Source of the DNA: Thalassomonas sp. RHCl1
GTDB taxonomy: Bacteria > Pseudomonadota > Gammaproteobacteria > Enterobacterales > Alteromonadaceae
Reading direction: 5' to 3'
DNA length: 64,000 nucleotides
Assembly (NCBI RefSeq): GCF_947387555.1
Contig: NZ_CANDNZ010000001.1
Location: 868,001-932,000, forward strand
This document shows, in pieces, positions 27,549-32,014 of this stretch. The translations under genes were made by a program, and so were the position numbers. A model generated the notes under the pieces. It saw nothing but the letters and a program-made list of their open reading frames with translations. It was not told where the DNA came from and did no database searches. The stretch's first letter is position 1, and each line of letters starts with the position of its first letter.

Positions 27549-28982
27549 ATGGCTGGTATATCATTTCCCGGGGTAGGTTCCGGATTACAAGTAAGTGAAA
27601 TTGTTACTGCAATTGTTAACGCAGAAAAAGTGCCATATCAAAACCGGGTTACCCAAAAGCAAGCCGAATTTACGACCGATATTTCTGCCGTAGGCTCATT
27701 AAAGTCAGCTTTGCAAGAAGTGAATACTTCTCTGGAAGCTTTGGGTGATGCCGATAACTACCAGCAACGTAAAGCCACCGGTCGCGATGACTTTATTGGT
27801 ATAGATACCACCAAAGATGCTGCTGTTGGCAATTATTCCATTGAAGTAAAAGCCTTATCTCAATCTCATAAATTAATGTCCGGTGCTATCGACAGTTCAG
27901 CTGCTGTAGGTGAAGGTACTATGACTATTGCTGTTGACGGTGACAGTTTTGACATCGCCACTACTGCCACGACTACCCTCAGTGAATTACGTGATTTAAT
28001 TAACGATAGCGAGTCTAATGATTCCGTTGTCGCGACCATAATTACCGATGGTACCGATCAGCATTTGGTACTTAACAGTAAAGAAACCGGTGTCAGTAGT
28101 GAAATAAAGATCACCGTTGATGATAATGACGGTAATGATACTGACGGTACGGGCTTGTCTCAGCTCGCTTATGATGCCTTGGCTGCGACTCCGGTATTAA
28201 ACCTGTCAGAAGTAGATAAGGCACAGGATGCTGAAATTATTATTGATGGCAGTGTAACGGTAAACAGCAGTACTAATGAGTTTAAAGATGCCATCGACGG
28301 CGTAACCATCACCGCAAATAAAGCGCATGACATTGCCGGTGGCGATGATTTAAGTAAGGCGACAATCTCCGAAGATAATAGCAACGTGGCTACCGGCATC
28401 AATGCCTTTATAGAAAGTTTTAATGCCCTGGTTGATCTCAGTAAGCAGTTGGGAGCTTCAGAAGATGGCGCTGTAGGTGCATTAGCCGGTGATTCCATGT
28501 TGCGTAATGTGATGACGAAAATCCGCTCTCAATTTACCACTGATTTTGAAACCGGCGTTAGCAGCTCAGGCAAGACTACGCACTCTATGCTGGCTGAGCT
28601 TGGGGTACGCACAGAACGTAGCGGACACTTGAGTTTAGATTCTGATGCTCTAAATGATATACTTGATGCGGATCCAAGTGATGTACAAAACTTTTTTGTC
28701 GGCACGGATACCGGTACCGGTTTTGTTGAAAGTATGGATGATTTGATTGGTTTTTATACCGAATCTGATGGCTTAATTGATAGGCGTGTTGAGGGTAACA
28801 ATACCCAGATTTCCAAGTTAGAAAAAGATGTTGAAGCATTTAATATTAAAATGGATGCTCTGGAAGCTCGTTTATATGCCCAATACAATTCTATGGATAC
28901 CTTAGTTGCACAACTAAATAATACCGGCAGTTATATTACCCAACAGCTAGATAATATGCCGGGTGTGGTAAAAGACTCTTAA
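27549..28982 (+). CDS. fliD: Filament cap protein FliD (HAP2)
   Basis: FliD caps the filament and helps flagellin to insert. The 477-aa protein has the N-terminal signature (PGVGSGLQVSEIVTAIVNAE) with coiled-coil tendency, a flagellin IN-like repeat in the middle (VNSSTNEFKDAIDGVTITAN), and the C-terminal coiled coil (DALEARLYAQYNSMDTLVAQ). The length fits the family. A terminator follows at 29004-29034. Confidence 0.94.
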   Translation: MAGISFPGVGSGLQVSEIVTAIVNAEKVPYQNRVTQKQAEFTTDISAVGSLKSALQEVNTSLEALGDADNYQQRKATGRDDFIGIDTTKDAAVGNYSIEVKALSQSHKLMSGAIDSSAAVGEGTMTIAVDGDSFDIATTATTTLSELRDLINDSESNDSVVATIITDGTDQHLVLNSKETGVSSEIKITVDDNDGNDTDGTGLSQLAYDALAATPVLNLSEVDKAQDAEIIIDGSVTVNSSTNEFKDAIDGVTITANKAHDIAGGDDLSKATISEDNSNVATGINAFIESFNALVDLSKQLGASEDGAVGALAGDSMLRNVMTKIRSQFTTDFETGVSSSGKTTHSMLAELGVRTERSGHLSLDSDALNDILDADPSDVQNFFVGTDTGTGFVESMDDLIGFYTESDGLIDRRVEGNNTQISKLEKDVEAFNIKMDALEARLYAQYNSMDTLVAQLNNTGSYITQQLDNMPGVVKDS

Positions 28983-29003: not shown

Positions 29004-29034
29004 AAAACCAGTTACTCCCAGATTAACTGGTTTT
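29004..29034 (+). terminator. Terminator after fliD
   Basis: AAAACCAGTTA (29004-29014) and TAACTGGTTTT (29024-29034) form an 11-bp stem with a 9-nt loop, ending in T residues. Confidence 0.8.
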
Positions 29035-29158: not shown

Positions 29159-29174
29159 TGGCCTTTTTCTTGCT
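29159..29174 (+). promoter_or_regulatory. Candidate sigma-54 promoter of the PEP-CTERM genes
   Basis: TGGCCTTTTTCTTGCT has GG and GC 10 nt apart and TTGCT at -12; -24 is TGGCC as in the flagellin 2 promoter. It lies 119 bp before the ATG. Confidence 0.5.
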
Positions 29175-29292
29175 GAACCCAATGAGATGGCATTTTTTTG
29201 TCGTTTTCTGCCGGGAGAGTAGAGTAAGTGGTTTGAATACTTCTTGTACTGCGTTGTTATCGGTGGGGAGTCTTATTAAATGGAGCAGTTGT

Positions 29293-30018
29293 ATGAAAAC
29301 CATTATAAAAACAAACATGAGTAAAGTAACTAAGGGCATAGTCTCAATCGGCTTGTTCAGCGCTATTTTAGCAGTCTCAACTTATGCCAATGCAGGTTTA
29401 TTTCTTCGTGATGGCGGCATGGTTTATGATGATGTCTTAGATATCACCTGGTTGCAGGATGCTGATTATGGGAGAACATCTGGTTATTATGCCGGCAAGG
29501 GAATGACTTGGGAGCAGGCCAATGTTTGGGCAAATGATTTGGTTTATGGCGGATATGATGACTGGCGTCTATTTAATGCCGCACCAGATGACTCAAATTG
29601 TTCTCACTCAAGAGTTAGTGATGCAGGAATTAGTGCAAACTTTGGTGCTAATTGCACTAAGAATGAATTTGCGCACCTCTTTTACGAAGATTTTGGGCTA
29701 ACTGAATCCCAGTCCCTGGCTGATATGGCTGATGCTACGGGGCAAGAGCTTAGCAACTATAACTTATTTGAAAATATTCCGATCACTAATTATTGGTCAG
29801 CTACAGATTACGCCCCTCTGGCTACCAGTGCGTTTTACTTTAATCCCACTAATGGTCATCAAAGCTTTGGCAGTAAAGATTATAAGCTAACCGCTTGGGC
29901 TGTTCGTGATGGCGATGTGACCAAGACCGGCGTAGTAAGTGAAGTGCCTGAACCCGGCTCATTAGCTTTATTAGGGTTGGCGGTATTGGCTTTAAGTACA
30001 CGCCGTTATAATCGATAG
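29293..30018 (+). CDS. PEP-CTERM sorted secreted protein (DUF1566-like), paralogue 1
   Basis: A 241-aa exported protein. ATG at 29293 has TGGAG upstream and starts a signal peptide (hydrophobic core VSIGLFSAILAVSTYANA). The mature part starts with LFLRDGGMVYDDVLDITWLQ and shows the DUF1566/Lcl pattern: WEQANVWANDLVYGGYDDWRL, a YWSATDYA motif and AWAVRDGDV. The C-terminus is a textbook PEP-CTERM sorting tag: VPEPGSLALLGLAVLAL followed by basic RR. Such tags are cut by an exosortase and are linked to exopolysaccharide or biofilm systems. No exosortase is in this window. Role near flagella unknown. Confidence 0.85.
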   Translation: MKTIIKTNMSKVTKGIVSIGLFSAILAVSTYANAGLFLRDGGMVYDDVLDITWLQDADYGRTSGYYAGKGMTWEQANVWANDLVYGGYDDWRLFNAAPDDSNCSHSRVSDAGISANFGANCTKNEFAHLFYEDFGLTESQSLADMADATGQELSNYNLFENIPITNYWSATDYAPLATSAFYFNPTNGHQSFGSKDYKLTAWAVRDGDVTKTGVVSEVPEPGSLALLGLAVLALSTRRYNR

Positions 30019-30074
30019 TCAGCGTGTAATGCTCAGTTTTTCCTTTGCTAGCGAGCAATAAGGCTAATTAAGAA

Positions 30075-30105
30075 TCGCTTTGTCTTAGTTGTTATTTCAA
30101 AGCGA
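30075..30105 (+). terminator. Hairpin between the two PEP-CTERM genes
   Basis: TCGCTTTG (30075-30082) and CAAAGCGA (30098-30105) form an 8-bp stem with a 15-nt loop. No T-run follows, so it may be a processing or attenuation site rather than a full terminator. Confidence 0.4.
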
Positions 30106-30200
30106 GTTCAGTTCCCCTATTTATTAATAAATCTATTTCAAAGTTTATCTGTTGTCAGGAGTCATTTTTCCTGATTTTGAATATTAAATGGAGTATCAAG

Positions 30201-31043
30201 ATGAAAACCAAACTAAAACAGCTTGCTCAGGCAAGTGTATTATTAACTACCTTAATAGCATCAACCCAGGCAAGTGCCAGCTTAATCGTAAGAGATGGCG
30301 GCATGGTTTATGACGATGTTCTCGATATTACTTGGCTATTAGATGCTAATTATGCCAAAACATCGGGTTATGCTGCTGACAATCAAAATGGCAGTGCAAA
30401 TTCGACATCAACGAATATCCAAGCCGATGGCCGCATGGGCTGGGATGCGGCAATAACCTGGAGTGAACAACTTGTTTATGCTGGTTTTGATGACTGGCGC
30501 TTGCCGACTTTACAGCCTCTTAGTTGTGCCGGTCAAACAAACTGTACCGATGATTTTAACTACCCATTTGCTTATGACGGCAGCAGAGACCATGGCAGTA
30601 ATATTACCAGCCCAATGTCTGAACTTGCTTATATGTTTAATGTTAATCTTGCGTTGCCTGGTCAATGTGATCCGGTATTATCAACAGCGGATACCTGTGT
30701 AACAAATGATGCCTGGACCCGTTATTACCAACAAAATATTCCTGCTAGTTTTATTGACGCTGCCACGGGAGATACCGTAGAGGTAGATAATCTGATGGGA
30801 GAGCGTTACTGGTATGATCTAGAGTATAAGAATAATATTGGCGTAAGTTCATGGGTTTTTGGCATGTATGATGGTTCGCAAGGGCACAATGGCAAGTCAA
30901 ATAGTATGTATGCCTGGGCAGTACGCGATGGTGATGTCGCAAACTCAGCGGGCAGTGAAGTGCCTGAACCTGGTTCTCTGGCGTTATTCGGTTTAGTTAT
31001 GTTAGGTTTGGGAGCAAGGCGTTTTACTTCTGCCTCCAACTAG
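30201..31043 (+). CDS. PEP-CTERM sorted secreted protein (DUF1566-like), paralogue 2
   Basis: 280 aa, clearly paralogous to the preceding gene: RDGGMVYDDVLDITWL is shared, as are WSEQLVYAGFDDWRL, YAWAVRDGDV and the terminal EVPEPGSLALFGLVMLGLG-ARR tag. The short upstream sequences are also alike (TAAATGGAG before each ATG). ATG at 30201 starts the signal peptide (LAQASVLLTTLIASTQASA); the frame extends to 30177 without better support. This copy has extra loops with Cys pairs (SCAGQTNCTDD, QCDPVL...DTCVTND) that may form disulphides outside the cell. Confidence 0.85.
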   Translation: MKTKLKQLAQASVLLTTLIASTQASASLIVRDGGMVYDDVLDITWLLDANYAKTSGYAADNQNGSANSTSTNIQADGRMGWDAAITWSEQLVYAGFDDWRLPTLQPLSCAGQTNCTDDFNYPFAYDGSRDHGSNITSPMSELAYMFNVNLALPGQCDPVLSTADTCVTNDAWTRYYQQNIPASFIDAATGDTVEVDNLMGERYWYDLEYKNNIGVSSWVFGMYDGSQGHNGKSNSMYAWAVRDGDVANSAGSEVPEPGSLALFGLVMLGLGARRFTSASN

Positions 31044-31080
31044 TCAATATGCTAAAGTGAATTACCAAGTTACCGTCAAA

Positions 31081-31106
31081 AACAAAGCCCCGTTAGGGGC
31101 TTTGTT
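31081..31106. terminator. Bidirectional terminator between PEP-CTERM gene 2 and fliT
   Basis: AACAAAGCCCC, GTTA, GGGGCTTTGTT: an 11-bp perfect stem with T- and A-rich ends, able to serve both converging transcripts. Confidence 0.85.
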
Positions 31107-31222
31107 TTATCTGAGTGAGGGAAAAACGTAGAGAATAAATCTCTATATGAGGTTGCAATAAAGGTAATTTTTATAAATAACTGTCAGGAGAAGTAAAGGA
31201 ATTTCTTGGGATAATGGCGAAG

Positions 31223-31576
31223 CTATTTATTACCTTTATAGGCATTAACCGCCTTTTGATTCTTTTTAAAACCTACCAATTGGTCTGCTACTGTTTGCTT
31301 GTATTCGTTGCAGCGTGTCAATATTTGCCGATCGAGTTGTTGTAGGGTATTTAATAACGGATTTTCTGCCTGATAAGCATTTTTGTCATAAGCCTGAAAA
31401 AAATGCTGCACACCCGCAAACCTCTGCTCTTCTTTCTTGGCGAGTAAGAGCACATCAATTTCTTCTGCCTGAGTAATTGCCAGTATTTCTTCAGATAAGG
31501 CGATCAACGCCAGTAGCTCCTGTTTTAGGGCTTGTGCTGGCGTTTGCTCTGTGTTTATTGCAGGCTCTGTAGTCAT
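31223..31576 (-). CDS. fliT: FliT-like flagellar chaperone (FlaI-type)
   Basis: A 117-aa, mostly helical protein downstream of fliS on the same strand, where polar clusters encode the FliD chaperone FliT (called FlaI in Vibrio). Helical stretches include ALKQELLALIALSEEILAIT and NTLQQLDRQILTRCNEYKQT. The family is poorly conserved, so the name rests on size, helicity and position. Unusually, the pair is on the minus strand, opposite to fliD. Confidence 0.6.
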   Translation of the reverse strand: MTTEPAINTEQTPAQALKQELLALIALSEEILAITQAEEIDVLLLAKKEEQRFAGVQHFFQAYDKNAYQAENPLLNTLQQLDRQILTRCNEYKQTVADQLVGFKKNQKAVNAYKGNK

Positions 31577-31606
31577 ACTTTTAGGCGTTTATTACAGTGA
31601 ATCAGG

Positions 31607-32014
31607 TTAAACCGATTCAAAGCTAACTTTATCCTGCTCTTCTTTAGGAATGCTGTCCCAGCCGGCTTTTATCGGCAATAAAATTTGAATGATCTCATCC
31701 AGCAAGGCTTCATCATTGTTGGTGTTGGCTTCCACCAGTTTATCCGAGCAGAAAATATAAAGATCGGACAGGTTACGGGAAATATCCCCGCCTTGTTCAA
31801 AATCCAGTGAACCCTGCAGTACCCCTATGATGGTAATCGCCTTTGACAACAAATCACCTTTTTTGGCGTGATCTTTCTGCTGGATAGCTCCTTTCGCTGA
31901 AGCAATATTACCCAGTAATTTTTGGAACAGCATGGCCACGAGCTGGTAAGGGTTTGCTTCTTTCGCCGCGCTCACCGTAGTTTGCTGATATTTTTTAACT
32001 GATATATGTGCCAT
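31607..32014 (-). CDS. fliS: Flagellin export chaperone FliS
   Basis: FliS binds the C-terminal helix of flagellin before export. The 135-aa protein has the family core: YQLVAMLFQKLLGNIASAKG near residues 22-41, KAITIIGVLQGSLDFEQGGD and LSDLYIFCSDKLVEANTNND. It begins at ATG 32014 with a GGAG site, is followed 30 bp later by fliT, and is divergent from flrA. Confidence 0.92.
   Translation of the reverse strand: MAHISVKKYQQTTVSAAKEANPYQLVAMLFQKLLGNIASAKGAIQQKDHAKKGDLLSKAITIIGVLQGSLDFEQGGDISRNLSDLYIFCSDKLVEANTNNDEALLDEIIQILLPIKAGWDSIPKEEQDKVSFESV

Follow-up and report, generated by a model that had tools for sequence, protein, structure and literature searches.

Marine bacteria encode many PEP-CTERM proteins, and a function or a regulator is known for few of them. 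In the available text of the description of the PEP-CTERM/exosortase (EpsH) system, a sigma-54 site is given as a mark of PEP-CTERM genes and a further upstream element, motif 1, is attributed to the regulator PrsR, so that sigma-54, motif 1 and PrsR appear in association (Haft et al., 2006; PMC1569441). One such gene, pepA of Aquincola tertiaricarbonis, has been tied to floc formation and, in the accessible part of the report, not to swarming or biofilm (PMC9850573). A domain that also occurs in PEP-CTERM proteins of the present study, DUF1566 (Lcl_C, PF07603), is known from Legionella Lcl, where it belongs to a trimeric domain with affinity for sulphated glycosaminoglycans; its general role is called unclear in the accessible text of that study (PMC11162425). 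Among open-access titles and abstract openings, no description of PEP-CTERM genes in a flagellar cluster was found.

This report deals with two PEP-CTERM genes, pep1 and pep2, located among the flagellar genes of Thalassomonas sp. RHCl1 in a stretch of 64,000 nucleotides (the window). The reading favored here, with a probability of roughly 0.65, is that pep1-pep2 is a small unit of exosortase substrates resident in the convergent fliD/fliT junction of the genus, and that it belongs to a genome-wide PEP-CTERM surface programme and not to flagellum building. The comparison covers the genome of the window (G000; 7,557,691 bases in 39 contigs), three other genomes of the genus (G013, G061, and G095) and genomes of the wider family.

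The pep1-pep2 Locus

The features of the locus are collected in Table 1. The original prediction, of two paralogous DUF1566-like PEP-CTERM proteins behind a sigma-54 site, is borne out: both proteins exceed the Pfam cut-offs for Lcl_C (PF07603; 47.2 bits for pep1 and 36.2 for pep2, cut-off 34.9) and for the PEP-CTERM tag (PF07589; 26.8 and 27.9 bits, cut-off 20.7), as well as that of TIGR02595 (21.2 bits each, cut-off 16), and the site TGGCCTTTTTCTTGCT, which lies 134 nt before the pep1 ATG with correct GG/GC spacing, reaches 11.5 out of a maximum of 20 with a matrix built on the sigma-54 consensus. The site precedes pep1; pep2 has none of its own (best score -0.0), and its transcription probably starts at the pep1 promoter. 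The two proteins are 43% identical in a two-sequence alignment and 35% identical by BLASTP over 283 columns. Searched against the sequences of solved structures, the pep proteins gave weak, unconvincing matches only (best E 0.01), and an AlphaFold2 model from a two-row alignment had a mean pLDDT of 35.9. A third pep1-like gene of the same genome (L150 7201 onward, G000 C2:627207) stops shortly past the Lcl_C body and has lost the PEP-CTERM tag, which its G061 counterpart retains.

Table 1. Features of the pep1-pep2 locus and its flanks (window coordinates).
Feature	Position	Strand	Description
fliD, upstream flank	27549..28982	+	best NCBIfam matches are FliD models, under equivalog cut-offs
Terminator-like hairpin 3' of fliD	29004..29034	+	folding, -12.2 kcal/mol, z -3.69
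Sigma-54 (-24/-12) promoter site TGGCCTTTTTCTTGCT	29159..29174	+	score 11.5; counterparts in G013 and G061
Block TTTTTGTCGTTTTCTG	29195..29210	+	between sigma-54 site and pep1 ATG; alignment-based
pep1	29293..30018	+	ATG 29293, 241 aa; signal-peptide-like N-terminus, Lcl_C (DUF1566), PEP-CTERM tag 29944-30006
pep2	30201..31043	+	ATG 30201, 280 aa; pep1 paralogue of the same architecture; PEP-CTERM tag 30960-31022
Terminator-like hairpin 3' of pep2	31079..31108	+	folding, -21.5 kcal/mol for 31060-31115, z -4.97
fliT-like gene, downstream flank	31223..31576	-	named by place
fliS, downstream flank	31607..32014	-	TIGR00208, 74.7 bits (cut-off 53.75); inverted relative to fliD

The predicted position between fliD and fliST also holds, with the correction that fliS and the fliT-like gene (which has no NCBIfam match) are encoded on the minus strand, so that the pair occupies a convergent junction. 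The FliD sequence is 51-52% like those of Colwellia and Pseudoalteromonas. Since hairpins follow both fliD and pep2, pep1-pep2 looks like a self-contained transcription unit; these hairpins are absent from a consensus terminator scan whose yield was about that of shuffled sequences. Folding of the intergenic region from 30050 to 30180 revealed no marked structure (z -1.18).

The PEP-CTERM Gene Set of the Genome

The genome holds 62 PEP-CTERM tags above the cut-off (of 68 matches), distributed over 53 loci and 20 contigs; at E 0.005 or better the count is 60, compared with 57, 44, and 50 in the sister genomes. The exosortase, which had been expected elsewhere in the genome, was indeed located there in one copy (C15:87834-88571; PF09721, 164.7 bits, cut-off 25.7; TIGR02602, 148.6 bits, cut-off 105.55; 181.1 bits with the XrtA model, below its cut-off of 208), and all four genus genomes encode one. 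The contig of the exosortase also carries, at a distance of about 24 kb from it, adjacent genes for PrsR (749 bits, cut-off 502.6) and PrsK (722 bits, cut-off 300). The premise that PEP-CTERM genes are normally tied to exopolysaccharide and exosortase loci finds no support in this genome, where 2 of the 62 tags are 25 kb or less from the exosortase; scatter of these genes is the rule here.

A sigma-54-like site scoring at least 8 precedes 38 of 60 PEP-CTERM genes (mean of 7.35 in shuffles) as compared with 7 of 68 other genes, and therefore the pep1 site fits the PEP-CTERM class. At a score of at least 11, the level of the pep1 site, the control is 1 of the 68 non-PEP genes (400 upstream bases) and a mean of 1.8 of 60 in shuffled PEP-CTERM upstream regions. 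The 68 control genes come from a subset of genomic regions; of the 62 tags, one in a 29-residue frame and one whose gene lies at a contig end and has a doubtful start were excluded, and start codons were assigned by a heuristic, except that of pep2, which was set by hand. These figures bear on the proposal that the site points to the flagellar activators FlrA/FlrC: the same site is usual for PEP-CTERM genes in this genome and is their published mark (available text of PMC1569441), so that the site alone does not point to FlrA/FlrC, and with the published connection of motif 1 with PrsR, flagellar control no longer follows directly from the presence of a sigma-54 site. Where most PEP-CTERM genes carry such a site, finding one beside flagellar genes says little about flagellar control.

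Promoter Elements at the Flagellar Locus

Comparable sites precede the homologous genes at the same locus of G013 (14.3) and G061 (two genes, with scores of 10.8 and 14.0), and the best score in the junction of G095, which has no pep gene there, is 3.8. Four of the five intact pep genes of the flagellar locus thus keep the site, pep2 being the exception, and TGGCCTTTTTCTTGCT is taken as real. The flagellin gene fla1 carries a similar site, TGGCCTGTTTTTTGCT, 193 nt before its start. The likeness of the pep1 core to that of fla1 was weighed as an argument for FlrC and then set aside: it is not discriminating, because 11 of 37 other PEP-CTERM sites are at least as fla1-like. The leaders of the locus promoters are long (134, 191, 146, and 96 nt, against a median of 81 nt in 37 other PEP-CTERM genes; one-sided p 0.02 with rows that are not independent).

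An unsupervised motif search recovered a strong motif close to TGTCAGTTTTTTTTACA upstream of many PEP-CTERM sigma-54 sites. This box ends in TTTACA and matches the motif 1 of PEP-CTERM genes as given in the available published text (PMC1569441). It scores at least 12.8 in 31 promoters, in 16 of which it stands 80-83 nt before the sigma-54 site, and is found in 2 of the 68 non-PEP genes. In a leave-one-out scoring of the other sigma-54-positive PEP-CTERM promoters, the box reaches at least 9 in 20 of 35 (among them one on contig C17 with a possibly false match, which coincides with a terminator-like hairpin) and at least 12.8 in 19 of 35. In G061 it is present in 9 of 13 among 19 genes scored, which are largely counterparts of those of G000 and not independent of them (20 regions were fetched, one was cut too short, and the scored row L199 has a doubtful start).

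At the flagellar locus, the box is absent from all four promoters: those of pep1, the G013 gene, and G061 pepA and pepB. For pep1 the best score is 4.0 in the fliD-pep1 gap and 6.7, in the wrong place, within 400 bases (random 400-base pieces of the window have a median of 3.3 and a 90th percentile of 7.3); the other three promoters score at most 5.3. This absence is a real difference, yet no proof of flagellar control, because the box is also missing from two off-locus members of the pep1 clade (C2:627 kb in G000 and 3386 kb in G061) and from 15 of the 35 other sigma-54-positive PEP-CTERM promoters. Four PEP-CTERM genes of G000 (C5:246290, C2:5598, C7:130226, and C2:844769) have sigma-54 sites scoring 15.3-18.0 and no PrsR-type box, and may answer to other activators. 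A second motif shared by the box-less sigma-54 PEP-CTERM promoters rose only slightly above shuffles.

Alignment also revealed a block, TTTTTGTCGTTTTCTG, common to the upstream regions of pep1, the G013 gene and G061 pepA, and weaker in G061 pepB. Its pattern has one exact match in G000, that of pep1; with up to one mismatch it occurs there 26 times against 22 for its reversed control, without enrichment, and the paired counts for the four genus genomes are alike (26/22, 26/22, 24/21, and 23/29). The block was rejected as a shared enhancer or regulon motif, being no commoner than its reversed control, and by eye it was not found at fla1.

The Locus in Related Genomes

The comparison of gene order around fliD that had been proposed as a check was supportive, with genes of this family at this place in three of the four genus genomes. 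The order fliD(+)/fliTS(-) is constant in all four; a pep pair is present in two, one gene with a probable remnant in one, and none in the remaining one. Relative to the window, the other three genomes have a fliD 89% identical, a fliS 97-100% identical and a fliT-like gene 80.9-82% identical, and the pep genes of the locus are only 49-51% identical to their counterparts between genomes, which argues that they do not evolve like flagellar parts. A phylogenetic tree groups pep1 with the G013 gene, G061 pepB and two off-locus copies (support 100/100), and pep2 with G061 pepA and two other off-locus copies (90/86); the two gene types consequently stand in opposite order in G000 and G061. The stretch 3' of the G013 gene (L133 9427-10049) matches pepA in two short segments, which are collinear and differ in frame (26.9 and 22.3 bits, the best of 200 shuffles reaching 25.0), and is a probable decayed remnant of the pep2 type. 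G095 has no pep remnant at the locus. The place is thus an old one within the genus, and the genes in it turn over fast.

Outside the genus, fliD and fliS are convergent also in Colwellia psychrerythraea ND2E and Pseudoalteromonas sp. MMG007, neither of which has the pep genes. FliD was matched at 1e-60 in 13 of 118 family genomes, nine of them from other genera; in these nine loci no pep1/pep2 homologue occurs within 1.5 kb on each side of the fliD match, and fliD and fliS are convergent in five of the six where fliS was seen, the two being on the same strand in G034 (L161). Inverted fliS is recorded at 31223-32014 of the window and in L121, L122, L154, L156, L157, L158, and L160. In two of the nine loci (L153 and L155), the junction contains a flagellin-like sequence, which is not on the fliD strand but on the other one. 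Matches to pep1 at E 0.001 are present in 24 of 196 family genomes. Neither fliD, fliS nor flagellin was found near any of the 17 off-locus homologue regions inspected (13 from other genera and four from the genus, chosen among the stronger matches); one of them, L145, encodes NtrC-type regulators. A second fliD-fliS pair, about 31-33% identical, lies at C11:120185-121915 of G000, and the other three genomes of the genus each have a counterpart of it, which suggests a second flagellar system.

Proposed Mode of Action and Alternative Explanations

If pep1-pep2 forms part of the PEP-CTERM surface programme, sigma-54 polymerase would wait at 29159 until an enhancer-binding protein opens the promoter, and pep2 would come from the same transcript as pep1. 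By analogy with their families, both proteins would exit via Sec and be halted in the inner membrane by the tag, at which the exosortase would cut and hand them over to the cell surface or the polysaccharide matrix, where the Lcl_C body may hold glycans or neighbours. The foremost candidate for the activator, at somewhat less than an even chance, is some other sigma-54 activator; that the site goes unused is very unlikely.

PrsK/PrsR may drive the pair through a diverged or distant enhancer, PrsR then acting without a recognisable box. Both proteins are encoded, the sigma-54 site is of the usual PEP-CTERM type, the association of sigma-54, motif 1 and PrsR is published (available text of PMC1569441) and the Aquincola PEP-CTERM gene is RpoN-dependent (accessible part of PMC9850573), but the low box scores at all four locus promoters count against membership of the PrsR regulon and make this activator doubtful. 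The same missing boxes favor FlrC (or FlrA) acting within the flagellar hierarchy, with products that coat or decorate motile cells or prime attachment. The position of the locus between fliD and fliS/flrA and the similar site of fla1 are in line with it, and the long leaders fit, without proving anything, a regulator whose sites in Vibrio typically lie downstream of the transcription start according to the available text (PMC6504787). However, the fla1 likeness is matched or surpassed at other PEP-CTERM sites, boxes are missing as well from the off-locus pep1-clade copies and from many further promoters, and the block is neither a genome-wide motif nor evident at fla1; flagellar control is accordingly unlikely. 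A more elaborate version is slightly less probable still: the exosortase-anchored, possibly glycan-binding pair of this genus would have left the PrsR enhancer and come under FlrC via an enhancer in the leader, and swimming cells would produce a coat for attachment at the same time as the filament cap and flagellin.

The position may also be devoid of meaning, a PEP-CTERM gene having been inserted by chance into a convergent junction that tolerates it and kept there as a neutral passenger. With 53 scattered loci, a 64-kb window would include one or more with a probability of about 0.36, the junction has admitted a flagellin-like gene in two of nine other-genus loci, and the decay in G013, the absence from G095 and the opposite gene order in G000 and G061 all agree with such a history. 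Against it stand the retention in three of four genomes, with a sigma-54 site each time, the lower probability for the 14-kb core (0.09), and the shared block after the site, which chance placement leaves unexplained; this explanation is a serious one, if judged a little below even odds. The persistence in three genomes could reflect a tie to flagella, and a link of pep1-pep2 to swimming is possible. The favored reading of an exosortase-substrate unit in a genome-wide surface programme accommodates the class of the promoter, the architecture of the proteins and the scatter of their relatives.

If some sigma-54-driven members do answer to an activator other than PrsR, the PEP-CTERM set would be split between programmes, and a flagellar member, if true, would connect motility with proteins of the matrix or of attachment.

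Comparison with Known Systems

The Vibrio class III promoters controlled by FlrC (PMC6504787) share the sigma-54 site, the long leader and the place in a flagellar cluster, but unlike the genes that they serve, pep1 and pep2 are not flagellar parts. Legionella Lcl (PMC11162425) has in its C-terminal domain the same Pfam domain (PF07603/DUF1566), whereas pep1 and pep2 carry a PEP-CTERM tag and no collagen-like stalk was noted in them. A. tertiaricarbonis pepA (PMC9850573) is a PEP-CTERM gene under sigma-54 control, as pep1 probably is; it adjoins prsT, unlike pep1/pep2, whose products score 33.9 and 30.9 bits with the floc_PepA model, below its cut-off of 80.

The PEP-CTERM/exosortase (EpsH) system (Haft et al., 2006; PMC1569441) is alike in the C-terminal tag, the exosortase, PrsK-PrsR, the sigma-54 site and the scattered genes; what sets the locus apart from it is that the pep1 promoter, together with its counterparts at this locus in G013 and G061, is without a box of the motif 1 type. 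The parts of the pep1-pep2 locus are all of known kinds, and the two proteins are best described as ordinary exosortase substrates in a genus-specific place.
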